Below are positions 252 to 25,612 of a DNA stretch of 64,000 nt, piece by piece. Under the pieces are notes generated by a model. The model ran no database searches and had not been told where the DNA came from. It saw only the letters and a list, made by a program, of their open reading frames with translations. Location of the stretch: the NCBI RefSeq assembly GCF_023028225.1, contig NZ_CP095482.1, forward strand, positions 186,001 to 250,000, read 5' to 3'. Both the position numbers and the translations under genes were made by a program. Position 1 is the first letter of the stretch, and the number at the start of each line of letters is the position of its first letter. This stretch comes from Halorientalis litorea. Its GTDB lineage: Archaea > Halobacteriota > Halobacteria > Halobacteriales > Haloarculaceae.

Positions 252-1193
252 TCACTCGGCGAAGGCGTCCTGCAGGTCGGCACCGATTTTCTCGACGGCG
301 TCGGCACCCGCGTCTATCATGTCGGACATGCTGACGAAGCCGTGAATCATGTCCTCGTAGTGGTAGTGGTCGACGGGAACGTCGTCCTCGGCGAGGCGCT
401 CGGCGTAGGCTTGCCCCTCGTCGCGGAGCGGGTCGAAACCGGCGGTCACGACACTCGCCGGGGGCGTGTCAGAGAGGTCGTTGGCGAGCAGCGGCGAGAA
501 GTACTCGTTCCGGAGGTGCAGGTCGTCGTCGACGTAACAGTCGAGGAACCACTCCATGCCGGGCGTCTCGAGGAAGTACCCCTCGGCGTTCTCCTCGTAG
601 GAGTCGAAGTCGTGGACTGCGGGGGACGCGAGGGCGGGATAGAGGAGCAACTGGTGCTGGATGTCGGGGCCGTCGCGGTCCTGTCCCATCAACGTCGTCG
701 CGGCGGTGAGGTTCCCCCCGGCGGAGTCGCCGCCGACTGCGATGCGGTCGGAATCGAGGTCGACGTGGGCACCGTTCTCCGCGATCCACTCGACGGCGGC
801 GTAGGCGTCGTAGACCGGCGCGGGGAAGGAGTGTTCGGGAGCCAGACGGTAGTCGACGGAGAGGACGGCGCACTCGCCCGCGTTCGCCAACTCGCGACAG
901 AGCGCGTCGTGTGTCTCGATGTTTCCGAGGACGAACCCGCCGCCGTGGAAGTACACGAGCGTCGGGTGCGGTCCCTCCCCCTCGGGGTAGTACGTCCGGA
1001 CCGGGAGCGGCCCCTCCGGCCCCTGAATCTCGAAGTTCCGCACGTCGGCCACGTCGGGCGCGTCCCGGAGCGTGGCGACGTTCTCGAACTGCTCGCGGGC
1101 ATCCGCGACCGAGAGCGCGTACACCGGCGGAATCGGCTGGCTGTCGATGATGTTGAGGAGGTTCTGTGCGTGTGGATGGGGTTCGTCTGCCAT
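252..1193 (-). CDS. alpha/beta hydrolase, hormone-sensitive-lipase-like esterase
   Basis: A 313-residue protein with the full HSL-family signature: oxyanion-hole HGGGF at about residues 83-87, nucleophile motif GDSAGG at about 155-160 (Ser157), acid DPLRDEG near 254 and catalytic His284 in DMIHGF. It should hydrolyse short-chain acyl or carboxyl esters in the cytoplasm; the substrate cannot be read from sequence. I chose the ATG at 1193 (MADEPHPH) over upstream in-frame codons because the extra 19 residues do not look like coding sequence and the alignable domain starts just after it. It is transcribed away from the methyltransferase gene beginning at 1368. Confidence 0.88.
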   Translation of the reverse strand: MADEPHPHAQNLLNIIDSQPIPPVYALSVADAREQFENVATLRDAPDVADVRNFEIQGPEGPLPVRTYYPEGEGPHPTLVYFHGGGFVLGNIETHDALCRELANAGECAVLSVDYRLAPEHSFPAPVYDAYAAVEWIAENGAHVDLDSDRIAVGGDSAGGNLTAATTLMGQDRDGPDIQHQLLLYPALASPAVHDFDSYEENAEGYFLETPGMEWFLDCYVDDDLHLRNEYFSPLLANDLSDTPPASVVTAGFDPLRDEGQAYAERLAEDDVPVDHYHYEDMIHGFVSMSDMIDAGADAVEKIGADLQDAFAE

Positions 1194-1367
1194 AATTCCC
1201 CAGTCGCGCGGGGGGAACTTAATGGCCCCAACCCCGATAATTACCACCAAGCATTAGCGAAGATTTTTGTATTCTTGGCAGATATGTACACGTGTCATGG
1301 ACAGCCACAGAGCGGGCGGTCACCGGCCGTGTCGCGACGGGCGAACGACTGCGGGGGAGGGCAGCGC

Positions 1368-3712: not shown

Positions 3713-4927
3713 TCAGAACTCGGGGATGTTCACGAGTTCGCCTTCGGGAACGTTCTCGAAGGCCTCACGCGCGATGGACCGCTTGTGAACCTCGTCGGCC
3801 CCGTCGACGATACGGAACGCGCGCACCGACTCGTAGAAGTCCGCGAGCGGCAGGTGTTTGGAGATGCCGGAGCCACCGCAGGCCTGCAGGGCGAAGTCGA
3901 CGGTCTCCTGCACGACGTTGGCGGTGTAGTACTTGCTCATCGCGACTTCGATGCGTGCCTCCTCGCCGCGGGCGATTTTCTGCGCGGCGTGGCGCACCAT
4001 GGTTTTGGCGGCGTGGAGTTGCGTCTCCTGTTCGGCGACGCGGAACCGGAGGCCCTGTTTGTCGGCGAGTCGGTCGCCGAAGGCGTCGCGGTTCTGCATG
4101 TACTCCTTGGCGATGTCGAGCGACCGCTGCGCCATCCCGGAGTAGCGCATGCAGTGGGTCAACCGGGCCGGCCCGAGACGCTTCTGGGCGATTTGGAACC
4201 CTTCGTTCTCCGGGCCGAGCAGGTTCTCTTCGGGGACGCGGACGTTGTCGTAGCGAATCTCGGCGTGACTCTCCGCGATGAGGTCCTGCCCGAGGTGGGG
4301 CGTGGCCTCGACGATTTCGACGCCGTCGGCGTCGGCCGGAACGACGATGATGGACGTGCCAGCGTAGGGGTGTGCGTCCATGTCGGTCCGGGCCATCACG
4401 AGCAGTACGTCGGCTTCGTCGCCCTGCGTCGTCCACCACTTGTGCCCGTTGATGACCCACTCGTCGCCGTCTTTCTCTGCGGTAGTCTGCATCATCTTGG
4501 GGTCCGAACCAGCACCGGCCTTGGGTTCCGTCATCGAGAACCCGGAACGAATCTCCCCGGCGACGAGCGGCTTCAGGTACTCCTCCTTCTGGGCCTCCGT
4601 GCCGAACATCTCGAAGGTGTGCATGTTGCCCTCGTCGGGCGCGTCGACCCGCATCGCAGGCTGTCCGAGGATGCTCCGCCCGGCCTGCTCGAACAGCGGC
4701 AACACGTCACGGAAGTCGTGGCCCATCCCGCCGTACTCCTCGTCTATCTGCGGACAGTACACGTCGTACTCGTGAGCTTTCGCCCGCAAGTCGGCGATGA
4801 CTGACTCGGGAACCGGGCCGTCACCGAGGTACTCGCGTTCGACTGGCAGCACCTCGGTCTCCATGAACTCTTCCGCGCGCTCGGCCAACGCTGTCGCCGT
4901 CTCAGAATCTTCGTATTCCACTACCAT
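3713..4927 (-). CDS. acyl-CoA dehydrogenase, ACAD10/ACAD11-like
   Basis: A 404-residue flavoprotein with standard ACAD features: WTTQGDEAD-type FAD/substrate loop, FSMTEPKAGAGSDP, and QACGGSGISKHLPL near the C-terminus. The position usually occupied by the IYEGTSEI catalytic segment reads IVDGADEVH, without the normal catalytic glutamate. That DGxDEVH pattern is the one found in ACAD10/ACAD11 and bacterial LvaC-like proteins, so it may not be an ordinary dehydrogenase. The phosphotransferase gene at 5077, equivalent to the other half of ACAD10/11, is divergent from it across a 149-base region. Electrons, if produced, would go to ETF (fixAB, 32-35 kb). Confidence 0.88.
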   Translation of the reverse strand: MVVEYEDSETATALAERAEEFMETEVLPVEREYLGDGPVPESVIADLRAKAHEYDVYCPQIDEEYGGMGHDFRDVLPLFEQAGRSILGQPAMRVDAPDEGNMHTFEMFGTEAQKEEYLKPLVAGEIRSGFSMTEPKAGAGSDPKMMQTTAEKDGDEWVINGHKWWTTQGDEADVLLVMARTDMDAHPYAGTSIIVVPADADGVEIVEATPHLGQDLIAESHAEIRYDNVRVPEENLLGPENEGFQIAQKRLGPARLTHCMRYSGMAQRSLDIAKEYMQNRDAFGDRLADKQGLRFRVAEQETQLHAAKTMVRHAAQKIARGEEARIEVAMSKYYTANVVQETVDFALQACGGSGISKHLPLADFYESVRAFRIVDGADEVHKRSIAREAFENVPEGELVNIPEF

Positions 4928-4945
4928 ACCAGCCCTTTAGCGCAC

Positions 4946-5039
4946 AACAATGTAAAACAACGCCCTCCGCAAACAACGAAGTTTCCGTGGCACCCACAGT
5001 TATTCGTACCTCGGGGCTGAACACGCCTAACAATGTTAG
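4946..5039. promoter_or_regulatory. divergent promoter region with repeated AACAATGT motif and palindrome
   Basis: The region between the acyl-CoA dehydrogenase and the phosphotransferase contains AACAATGT twice, at 4946-4953 and 5029-5036. The second copy is the core of a 13-base palindrome, CTAACA-A-TGTTAG at 5027-5039. On the minus strand TTTTACA at about 4951-4957 is a plausible TATA box 25-30 bases before the dehydrogenase start. A repressor site controlling both genes is inferred; the regulator is not identifiable here. Confidence 0.5.
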
Positions 5040-5076
5040 CCAGTGTACAGACAGACGCGGGACGGGCGGTGAACGC

Positions 5077-6153
5077 ATGACCGAATCGGACGAGGACTAC
5101 TTCGCACGCATCGTCGACGAGGAGAAGTTGGCGGCCTACTTCGAGGACCACCTCGGGGCCGTCGAGGAGTACGACGTGCGCCACCACAAGGAGGGACACT
5201 CGAACGAGACGCTGTTCGTGACGTGGGGCGAGCAAGAGTTGGTCGTCCGACGGCCGCCGCCGGGCGAGACGGCGGACAACGCCCACGACGTACTCCGGGA
5301 GTTCGAAGTCATCGACGCCCTGCAGGACACGAGCGTCGAGGTGCCGACGACGGTGGCGTCGTCCGCCGACCACTCGATTCTCGGTTCCGATTTCTACGTG
5401 ATGGAGCGCGAAGAGGGGACGGTCATCCGCACCGAGGAACCCGAGCGGTTCGCCACTCCCGAGTACCGGGAGCGAATCGGCGCGGAACTGGTCGACAGAC
5501 TCGCGGAGATTCACCAAGTCGACTACGAGGATATCGGCCTCGGCGACTTCGGCTACCCCGAGGGGTTCACGGAGCGACAGGTCGAGACGTGGACCGAACA
5601 GTTGCAGTGGGCGTTCTCGGTCACCACCGAGGAGCGCGAAGTCCCCGTCCTCCACGACGTGATGGCGTGGCTAGAGGACAACGTGCCCGAGGAGTACCCA
5701 CATACCCTCGTCCACGGGGACTACAAACTCGACAACGTGATGTTCGGGCCGGGGACGCCGCCGGAAATCGTGAGCATCTTCGACTGGGAGATGGCCACGC
5801 TCGGGGACCCGTTCACCGACCTCGGGTGGATGCTGTCCTACTGGTGGGACGGGAAGGACCCGGCCCCGCCCGACGCCACGGAGTCGCTGACGACGAACTT
5901 CATGGCCGGGCCGGACTACCTGACCCGGGAGGAGTTGGTCGACCGCTACGAGGCAGCGACCGGCTTCGAGTTCGACAACCCGCGCTTCTACCGCGCCCTC
6001 GCGGTGTACAAACTCGCCGGCCTCGGGGAGATGTTCTTCCGGCGGTACCTCGAAGGGAACAGCGACGACCCGATGTATCCGAAGATGCGCCACGGCGTCC
6101 CGCAACTCGCGGACCGCGCCCAGCGCATCATCGACGGCGAGGAACCGCTGTAG
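5077..6153 (+). CDS. APH-fold phosphotransferase (ACAD10/11 N-terminal domain / LvaA-like kinase)
   Basis: A 358-residue protein of the aminoglycoside-phosphotransferase fold: ATP-binding N-lobe to about 110, catalytic HGDYKLDN at about 213-220 and metal-binding FDWEMATLGDP from about 235. Members next to acyl-CoA dehydrogenases are not antibiotic-resistance enzymes; in ACAD10/11 and in the LvaA/LvaC pair of Pseudomonas the kinase phosphorylates a 4-hydroxyacyl-CoA so that the dehydrogenase-like partner can process it. Its place opposite a DGxDEVH-type dehydrogenase supports the same role here, by inference. The ATG at 5077 is chosen because the 30 upstream residues are not conserved-looking. 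Confidence 0.85.
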   Translation: MTESDEDYFARIVDEEKLAAYFEDHLGAVEEYDVRHHKEGHSNETLFVTWGEQELVVRRPPPGETADNAHDVLREFEVIDALQDTSVEVPTTVASSADHSILGSDFYVMEREEGTVIRTEEPERFATPEYRERIGAELVDRLAEIHQVDYEDIGLGDFGYPEGFTERQVETWTEQLQWAFSVTTEEREVPVLHDVMAWLEDNVPEEYPHTLVHGDYKLDNVMFGPGTPPEIVSIFDWEMATLGDPFTDLGWMLSYWWDGKDPAPPDATESLTTNFMAGPDYLTREELVDRYEAATGFEFDNPRFYRALAVYKLAGLGEMFFRRYLEGNSDDPMYPKMRHGVPQLADRAQRIIDGEEPL

Positions 6154-6220: not shown

Positions 6221-6718
6221 CTAGATACCGCGAACGGTCTCGACGAGTCCGACCGATTCGAGAACCATCCAGAGGAGAAACAAGGCGTACAGGAGGAGAA
6301 GGAAGCCGTACGCTTCGCGGTCGGTGTGTTCGAGGTGGGTGCGGATGAACACGATGAACAGGACGAGGACGCTGATGACGTAGAACTGTGCGTCCTTGTG
6401 AACGATGTCGCGTGTCGCTTCTAGTTCCTCGCTGGCCAGAGCCGAGAAGGCCGGAATGACGAGGAGGTTGAAGATGGCACTCCCGACGATGGCACCGACA
6501 CCGAGGGAAAACTCGCCGTGAAATACCGTGCTGATGACGACAGAGCTGAACTCGGGGAAACTCGACCCGACTGCGACCACGATAGCACCGTGGACGGCAA
6601 CGGGCAGTCCGTAGTACTTACTGAGGCGTCGTGCGGCCCGCTCGAAATACTCGCTCCCCTTCCAGATGACGAGAACGGCGACGACAGCGAGACCGATGGC
6701 GGTCTACAGTTCCGTCAC
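6221..6718 (-). pseudogene. broken Na+/Ca2+ exchanger (CaCA family), amber codon at position 5 and second half missing
   Basis: The frame reads TAIGLAVVAVLVIWKGSEYF, then AVHGAIVVAVGSSFPEFSSV, the alpha-1 repeat of CaCA exchangers, then GAIVGSAIFNLLVIPAF and two more membrane segments before a stop at 6221. A GTG start at 6716-6718 gives V-T-E-L followed by TAG (6704-6706) and then the conserved frame without a break, so codon 5 is a nonsense mutation. The next in-frame start, GTG at 6580, lies inside the alpha-1 repeat. The protein also ends after about 165 codons, whereas the family needs a second alpha repeat. TAG is used as a normal stop by neighbouring genes, so read-through is unlikely. 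Decay of a once functional cation exchanger is the simplest reading. Confidence 0.72.
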
Positions 6719-24430: not shown

Positions 24431-25612
24431 GTCGAGGAGTTCGCCGGCGATAATGTTGCGCTGAATCGCGCTCGCGCCCTCCCCGATTTGGTAGAGTTTC
24501 GCGTGACGGTACTGGCGTTCGACGGGATAGTCGCGGGTGTAGCCGTTGCCACCGTGGAGTTGCATAGCGTCGCTGGCGACTTCCTCCGCGACTTCGGAGG
24601 CGTAGAGTTTCGCCATACTGGCTAGCTTGGTCGGCTTCTCACCCTCGTCCAACTTCGCCGCGGCGCGGTAGGTGAGCGAGCGTGCGTTCTCCACTTTCAC
24701 CGCCATGTCCGCGATGTCGTGCTGGACGGCTTGGAACTCCTGCAGTTCGCGGTCGAACTGGGTGCGCTCGCCCACGTAGTCCATCGCTTCGTCGAGACAC
24801 CGCTGAGCGATGCCCAGAGCCTGTGCGGCGATGCCGACCCGTTCCTGCTCGAAGAACTCCATCAACTGGTAAAAGCCCATGTTCTCGTAGCCGACGAGGT
24901 TCTCCTCGGGGACCCGCACGCCGTCGTAGCGCAGTTGGGCGGTGTCGGAGGCGTTCCAGCCCATCTTGTGGATGTCGGACTCCACCTCGAAGCCGTCGCG
25001 GTCCGTCTCGACGATGATGGCCGAGACGCCGCTGTGTCCCTCCTCGCCCGTGCGACACATCGTGAGAACGTAGTCGGCGATGGAACCGTGCGTGATGAAC
25101 GTCTTCACGCCGTCGATGACGTACTCGCCGCCGTCTTCCTCTGCCTCCGGCACCGCAGGACTGGTCGTGGTTCGGTCTCCCTCGACTTTCTCGGCTCTCG
25201 TCTCGATGCTGGCGGCGTCGCTCCCGTGTTCGGGTTCAGTGTTACCCATCGCGCCGATGAGTTCACCCGAGGAGACGCCCTCCAGAATCCACTCTTTCTG
25301 CTCCTCGGAGCCGTACTCCGCAATCATCCGCGTGCCGAACTCGGTGCCGATGGCCGCGAGCATCCCGGCGTCCGCGTAGGCGATTTCCTCGGCGAAGATT
25401 GTCCCCTCGACGGCACCCATCCCAGCTCCGCCGTACTCCTCGGGGATGGACGCGCCGATGAGTCCCGCGTCGACGGCCTTCTGCCAGACTTCCTCGGGCC
25501 ACTCGCCACTTTCTTCGTGTTCGCGGGCGACCGGGTCGACTTCGTTCTGGGCGAACTCGCGTGCCGTCTTTCTGACCGCTCGCTGCTCCTCTGTCAGGGA
25601 GAAATCTATCAT
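24425..25612 (-). CDS. acyl-CoA dehydrogenase
   Basis: A 395-residue flavoprotein of the usual size. Visible: [20 protein letters not shown] at the start, [40 protein letters not shown], and [20 protein letters not shown]. The catalytic segment reads [20 protein letters not shown], with the Glu of the typical EGxxxIQ motif present, so this one should be a normal dehydrogenase, unlike that at 3713. It introduces the alpha-beta double bond of acyl-CoA, passing electrons to ETF. An SDR of the dienoyl-CoA reductase type is divergent from it. Confidence 0.93.

Follow-up and report, generated by a model that had tools for sequence, protein, structure and literature searches.

In the window, by which we mean the whole 64,000-nucleotide stretch of Halorientalis litorea DNA that was analysed, two genes are arranged divergently around a 149 bp intergenic region (4928-5076) that forms their shared control region. 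The gene on the minus strand (3713-4927) codes for a 404-aa protein of the acyl-CoA dehydrogenase (ACAD) family, with the full set of three Acyl-CoA_dh domains in Pfam (lowest E 3.3e-39), which is predicted to be a flavoenzyme eliminating phosphate from 4-phosphoacyl-CoA. The gene on the plus strand (5077-6153) codes for a 358-aa APH-fold protein (Pfam APH, E 5.5e-48) predicted to be a 4-hydroxyacyl-CoA kinase. A longer open frame starts with a GTG at 4987, but we placed the kinase start at the ATG because its orthologues align from there. Searches of both proteins against curated NCBIfam equivalogs gave scores far under the cut-offs. The flanking genes are unrelated to the pair and comprise a rhomboid-domain protein, a Na/Ca exchanger fragment, a flavin reductase, DoxX and HxlR. 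No gene for a CoA ligase, an SDR or a thiolase adjoins the pair at this locus, so the pathway is not organized there as one cluster, and genes for LvaB, LvaD, LvaE, LvaG and LvaR are likewise absent beside it. The exchanger fragment (6221-6580, minus strand, 119 aa) matches just the C-terminal two thirds of its domain and looks like a gene remnant. The window also holds an alpha/beta hydrolase (252-1250, minus strand; Abhydrolase_3 esterase), homologues of which lie close to the pair at four more of the surveyed loci, and an ACAD of a different type (24434-25609, minus strand), a single 403-aa open frame without the HCMR motif that gave a two-piece match (L017, L025).

The original prediction held that the ACAD lacks the normal catalytic Glu of the EG segment and has IVDGADEVH instead, and that the divergent gene is an APH-fold kinase with HGDYKLDN and FDWEMA motifs; both statements were borne out. 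D375 of the ACAD (RIVDGADEVH) occupies the column of the usual Glu, which in eight conventional ACADs of the same genome is Glu (7/8) or Ala (1/8). Furthermore, R250, R255, H258 and R261 (RLGPARLTHCMR), D375 and H221 correspond to R626, R631, H634, R637, D753 and H597 of mouse ACAD11. In the mouse enzyme D753 is the catalytic base, R626, H634 and R637 hold the 4-phosphate, and H597 is a further His near the FAD; mutation of R626, H634 or R637, or an Asp to Asn change at D753, abolishes ACAD10/11 activity (PMC12440821). Aligned with these residues, the window ACAD carries every one that mutagenesis showed to matter in ACAD10/11. We extended the comparison to 72 sequences (16 haloarchaeal, 32 LvaC-type, 16 ACAD10/11-type and the 8 conventional ACADs from the genome of the window), and the equivalents of R626, H634, R637 and D753 were found in 16/16 haloarchaeal, 32/32 LvaC-clade and 16/16 ACAD10/11-clade members, the catalytic column being Asp in all 64, whereas one of the eight conventional ACADs has Arg at the 637 column and none has the R626, H634 or D753 equivalents. 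The phosphate pocket of the ACAD is made of polar residues where the conventional site is hydrophobic. Additionally, the best PDB matches of its AlphaFold model (pLDDT 90) were 4hr3, human ACAD11 (2wbi) and mouse ACAD11 (8v3u), and a phmmer search of the PDB ranked 4hr3 and ACAD11 above all other ACADs. Identity was 35% to mouse ACAD11 and 35-39% to proxies of Pseudomonas LvaC. By its sequence, the protein has the catalytic Asp, the HCMR motif and the upstream Arg expected of a phosphate-eliminating ACAD.

Regarding the kinase, the catalytic D215 and N220 (HGDYKLDN) and D236 (DWE) are all there. It keeps the equivalents of ACAD11 D220 and N225 and also both CoA-contacting Arg, R74, directly before the alphaC Glu, and R167 being the counterparts of the two Arg predicted to contact CoA in ACAD11. 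Their role in CoA binding is a proposal from simulation (PMC12440821, where the first is printed as R86; we identified it from the statement there that it adjoins the alphaC Glu). These columns hold Arg in 56/56 and 55/56 of the haloarchaeal and ACAD11-class kinases and in 1/21 and 2/21 of the LvaA-class ones. The best PDB sequence matches were 9o56 (E 1.9e-65), 3dxp (4.1e-46) and the ACAD11 kinase domain (1.3e-45), and the best fold match of the model was 3dxp, followed by the 25-hydroxysteroid kinase 9fsg. Identity reached 32-37% with ACAD11-type kinases and 20-23% with the kinases of Pseudomonas lva clusters. The catalytic Asp and Asn, the DWE Asp and the two CoA-contacting Arg point to a kinase of the ACAD10/11 class.

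Phylogeny placed the two proteins differently with respect to the Pseudomonas enzymes LvaA and LvaC, to which they had been likened. In a quick ACAD tree (SH-aLRT support, no bootstrap; with the eight conventional ACADs, all of one genome, serving as outgroup), all ACADs bearing the Asp/HCMR signature fall into a single clade (99) apart from the conventional ones, which divides into ACAD10/11 with bacterial relatives (99), the LvaC type (88) and a haloarchaeal clade (100), the last being sister to the LvaC clade (joint node 92). This tree puts the window ACAD in a third clade, inside neither the ACAD10/11 nor the LvaC clade. The expected grouping thus holds at the level of the joint ACAD10/11 and LvaC clade (99) and fails for each clade proper. 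In a similarly quick kinase tree without bootstrap, the LvaA class is separate (99), and the haloarchaeal kinases (100) fall outside it on the ACAD11 side, as sisters of Chloroflexota and Actinomycetota kinases that adjoin LvaC-type ACADs (92) and within one large class that includes the ACAD11 kinase domain. Going by the two trees, the haloarchaeal pair combines an ACAD of LvaC-like type with a kinase of the ACAD11 class. The likeness to LvaC was retained as a sister relationship, and the kinase is no orthologue of LvaA: its 20-23% identity, its position on the ACAD11 side and the lack of LvaB/DUF6285 in haloarchaea all contradict that assignment.

The two genes are also inseparable across haloarchaea, which, together with the match of the ACAD residues to ACAD10/11, upholds the proposal of a split ACAD10/11-type pair. 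Among 391 haloarchaeal genomes, which are phylogenetically non-independent, ACAD and kinase were both present in 202 and both absent in 189, with no discordant case. Beyond the 202, a further 16 genomes were set aside post hoc, their ACADs having passed the cut-off at scores typical of conventional ACADs (1e-60 to 1e-63); all true orthologues scored 1e-98 or better, the exclusion followed sight of this gap, and the kinase was found in 0/16 of them. The kinase adjoins the ACAD in 27/29 of the nearest orthologues, and co-occurrence persists when the genes are distant, as in genomes where they lie on different contigs (G004) or about 415 kb apart (G070). Presence and absence of the pair both occur inside at least six genera (g3, g4, g7, g8, g18 and g20). 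The adjacency in nearest orthologues and the absence of discordance mean that the pairing is far beyond chance. No such ACAD was found in a sample of 148 genomes from non-haloarchaeal members of the same phylum. ACADs of this kind number three in the genome of the window, and so do the kinases; four of these genes make up two divergent pairs, of which the second (L058:7361-10411; G000:C1:1273360-1276410) is 60% identical to the first in both proteins; a 2-phosphosulfolactate-phosphatase-like gene lies immediately downstream of its kinase. The third ACAD is unpaired (L059:4596-8870); co-oriented genes after it encode a metallo-beta-lactamase-fold protein similar to AHL lactonases, with a score under the cut-off of that model, and a cytochrome P450. 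In Halocatena salina, the same two products were found under one plasmid match.

We surveyed the surroundings of the ACAD or kinase gene at 61 haloarchaeal loci, some genomes entering with two loci. An SDR was present in 33 of them, a 3-hydroxyacyl-CoA dehydrogenase/enoyl-CoA hydratase fusion in 16, a small DNA-binding-like protein without Pfam match also in 16, a HAD hydrolase in 14, an LLM-class oxidoreductase in 12, MaoC and a lactonase-related alpha/beta hydrolase in 10 each, an enoyl-CoA hydratase in 7 and an AMP-ligase in 6. The setting of the pair in other haloarchaea is one of beta-oxidation. We considered whether the HAD hydrolase is equivalent to the HAD domain of ACAD10 and do not claim so, because other HAD families match it best in NCBIfam and its homologue in the genome of the window sits elsewhere, away from the pair; its match to TIGR02247 (epoxide hydrolase N-terminal-like phosphatase) was weak. 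A phosphatase recurs beside the kinase in bacteria and archaea (L066:4189-4947, L063:7421-8074, L183:5596-6327 and L058:7361-8014) with three unrelated folds (histidine phosphatase, HAD and ComB-like), and perhaps clears dead-end phospho-acyl-CoA.

The intergenic region contains a 13-bp palindrome, CTAACAATGTTAG (5027-5039), perfect around one base and located on the kinase side, which is a candidate operator, and an imperfect second copy on the ACAD side, CAACAATGTAA (4945-4955); the latter overlaps TTTTACA, which is TATA-like when read in the direction of the ACAD gene. Only one copy of the palindrome's 11-bp core exists in the 3.2-Mb genome, and with up to one mismatch the window holds two matches to it versus 0.08 expected. 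In 42 distinct divergent haloarchaeal intergenic regions, the ACAD-side element was found in 27, the kinase-side palindrome in 13 and both in 11, compared with 0.1%, 0.2% and 0% in shuffled controls. The ACAD-side element may serve as a promoter as well as a putative operator, since its TATA-like stretch lies at about -27 from the start codon. A role of the palindrome as a genome-wide regulon mark was rejected, the core being limited to this site in the genome with no other targets found. Similarly, co-regulation after unlinking was unsupported because the core, frequent at linked pairs, was found at 8/16 unlinked kinases but at 1/17 unlinked ACADs.

Phosphorylation followed by phosphate elimination is established for ACAD10/11 (PMC12440821, PMC11342911), and the residues, phylogeny and linkage described above lead us to the same reading here: we consider it probable (about 0.8) that the ACAD10/ACAD11 reaction is carried out in this archaeon by two separate proteins, the products of the gene pair. 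In the first step, the kinase would move a phosphate from ATP to a hydroxyl, presumably the one at the 4-position, of a 4-hydroxyacyl-CoA, and the flavoenzyme would then eject the phosphate by means of Asp375 as the base, the FAD and a phosphate pocket formed by Arg250, His258 and Arg261. The resulting 2-enoyl-CoA would enter beta-oxidation, with no net redox change and no need for an electron-transfer flavoprotein. By inference the reaction would run in this direction, with a 4-hydroxy acid as the probable physiological substrate; the hydroxyl position is not dictated by the ACAD and kinase residues tested. The neighbours seen in other genomes (SDR, 3-hydroxyacyl-CoA dehydrogenase/hydratase and MaoC) fit the proposed pathway. 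Counting against this reading are the low identity of the ACAD to mouse ACAD11 and to the LvaC proxies, the lack of a single pathway cluster at this locus and the phylogenetic non-independence of the genome counts, the last tempered by the six or more genera in which both states occur.

The same kinase-then-eliminate chemistry could also act on other hydroxyacyl-CoAs, such as 4-hydroxybutyryl-CoA, a lactone-derived acid or a hydroxylated isoprenoid acid originating from archaeal lipids or carotenoids, which we judge unlikely while giving it real weight. A route through 4-hydroxybutyryl-CoA would replace the oxygen-sensitive radical dehydratase. That one genome holds three paralogues of each enzyme suggests that there are several substrates, and both the AHL-lactonase-like protein (below its cut-off) and P450 following the unpaired ACAD and the lactonase-related hydrolase beside the pair in 10 loci agree with this idea. 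However, the sequence singles out none of these substrates, and the unchanged ACAD11 phosphate-pocket residues favour a phosphate on the 4-carbon. A bolder version, in our opinion rather improbable, is that the dehydration of hydroxyacyl-CoAs in haloarchaea is ATP-driven, tolerant of oxygen and free of LvaB, and is directed mainly at archaea-specific substrates (4-hydroxybutyryl-CoA, or isoprenoid-lipid-derived lactones and hydroxy acids) instead of fatty 4-hydroxy acids, with paralogous kinase/ACAD pairs serving different substrates and a dedicated operator in the intergenic region.

It is very doubtful that the kinase phosphorylates a non-CoA alcohol in the way of the 25-hydroxysteroid kinase, leaving the ACAD to act later on the product. 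That enzyme (9fsg) ranks second among the fold matches of the kinase model and likewise takes part in an ATP-dependent dehydration (PMC8449060), but its sequence match is weak (E 4e-13 versus 1.9e-65 for 9o56), it is devoid of the Arg before the alphaC Glu that is present in 56/56 haloarchaeal and ACAD11-class kinases, and free 4-hydroxyvalerate is not phosphorylated by ACAD10/11 (PMC12440821). Lastly, although the ACAD fold and FAD domain are ordinary and profile libraries name just the general ACAD and APH families, we give very little credit to the idea that the ACAD is a common ETF-dependent acyl-CoA desaturase with an Asp base next to an unrelated antibiotic or small-molecule phosphotransferase, given the 202/202 co-occurrence without discordance, unlinked genes included, the polar phosphate-pocket residues in a normally hydrophobic site, and the inactivity of ACAD10/11, with the same residues, on C6-C22 acyl-CoAs (PMC12440821).

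Should the two-protein ACAD10/ACAD11 reading be correct, the handling of 4-hydroxy acids by phosphorylation and elimination, a route characterised in mammals and in certain Proteobacteria, would reach a whole class of Archaea; our literature search found no paper describing it in that domain. That haloarchaea can use a 4-oxo acid is shown by Haloferax mediterranei, which grows on levulinic acid (PMC12455835); the search found no paper tying this growth to genes. If present in H. mediterranei, the pair would provide concrete candidate genes for this unexplained growth. Furthermore, in roughly half of the haloarchaeal genomes sampled, generic labels such as acyl-CoA dehydrogenase and phosphotransferase family protein would give way to functions that can be tested. 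The main point of interest is that the pair makes archaeal 4-hydroxy-acid catabolism directly testable.

Among the known systems compared, that of Sterolibacterium has a 25-hydroxysteroid kinase (9fsg), which is an APH-fold kinase in an ATP-dependent dehydration, as proposed for the haloarchaeal kinase, but is far from it in sequence and uses a free tertiary steroid alcohol as substrate; its lyase partner was unknown in the 2021 report (PMC8449060). In the Pseudomonas lva operon, kinase and ACAD genes are separate, as in haloarchaea, and THCMR is common to both ACADs. However, the operon relies on an LvaA/LvaB kinase, LvaB being a 12-kDa partner of LvaA, whereas the haloarchaeal kinase lies outside the LvaA clade and has no LvaB/DUF6285, LvaB-like DUF6285 being found in 0/391 haloarchaeal genomes. 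Our references here were proxies for P. putida KT2440, from P. citronellolis (L150) and the P. putida group (L128, P. peradeniyensis). Both clusters are arranged as published for lva and agree with the LvaC identity in the literature, where P. citronellolis LvaC is reported at 78% identity to that of KT2440 (PMC6692424); between the two proxies we measured 78% as well. The stated identity of LvaC to ACAD10/11 (62%/56%; PMC11342911) was not reproduced with these proxies, which gave 35-36% to ACAD11. In both clusters a DUF6285 protein (PF19802) sits at the LvaB position (L150:4890-5264 and L128:5595-5948), the LvaB assignment being by operon position; in P. citronellolis it directly follows the kinase, versus the report of no lvaB homologue in LA18T (PMC6692424). 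DUF6285 adjoins 20/22 LvaA-class kinases and 0/46 others, so two kinase classes can be told apart and LvaB accompanies one only, which suggests that LvaB may supply the acyl-CoA binding that ACAD11-class kinases obtain from their own Arg.

The same combination of ACAD type and kinase class, without LvaB, is found in Ktedonobacteria/Chloroflexota and Actinomycetota loci (for example L077, L079, L081 and L083). The genes are divergent in the Ktedonobacteria locus L077, as in haloarchaea, while L079 and L081, unlike the window pair, have both genes on one strand with the kinase after the ACAD; these bacterial ACADs are inside the LvaC clade and the haloarchaeal one is outside. Finally, mammalian ACAD10 and ACAD11 share with the haloarchaeal proteins the catalytic Asp, HCMR motif and upstream Arg of the ACAD, and the catalytic residues, CoA-contacting Arg and wide class of the kinase. 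They differ in being kinase-ACAD fusions, whereas the haloarchaeal proteins come from two separate divergent genes, the haloarchaeal ACAD (35% identity) having no fused HAD domain and lying outside the ACAD10/11 clade. The haloarchaeal pair is an archaeal branch of this known enzyme system and not a new kind.
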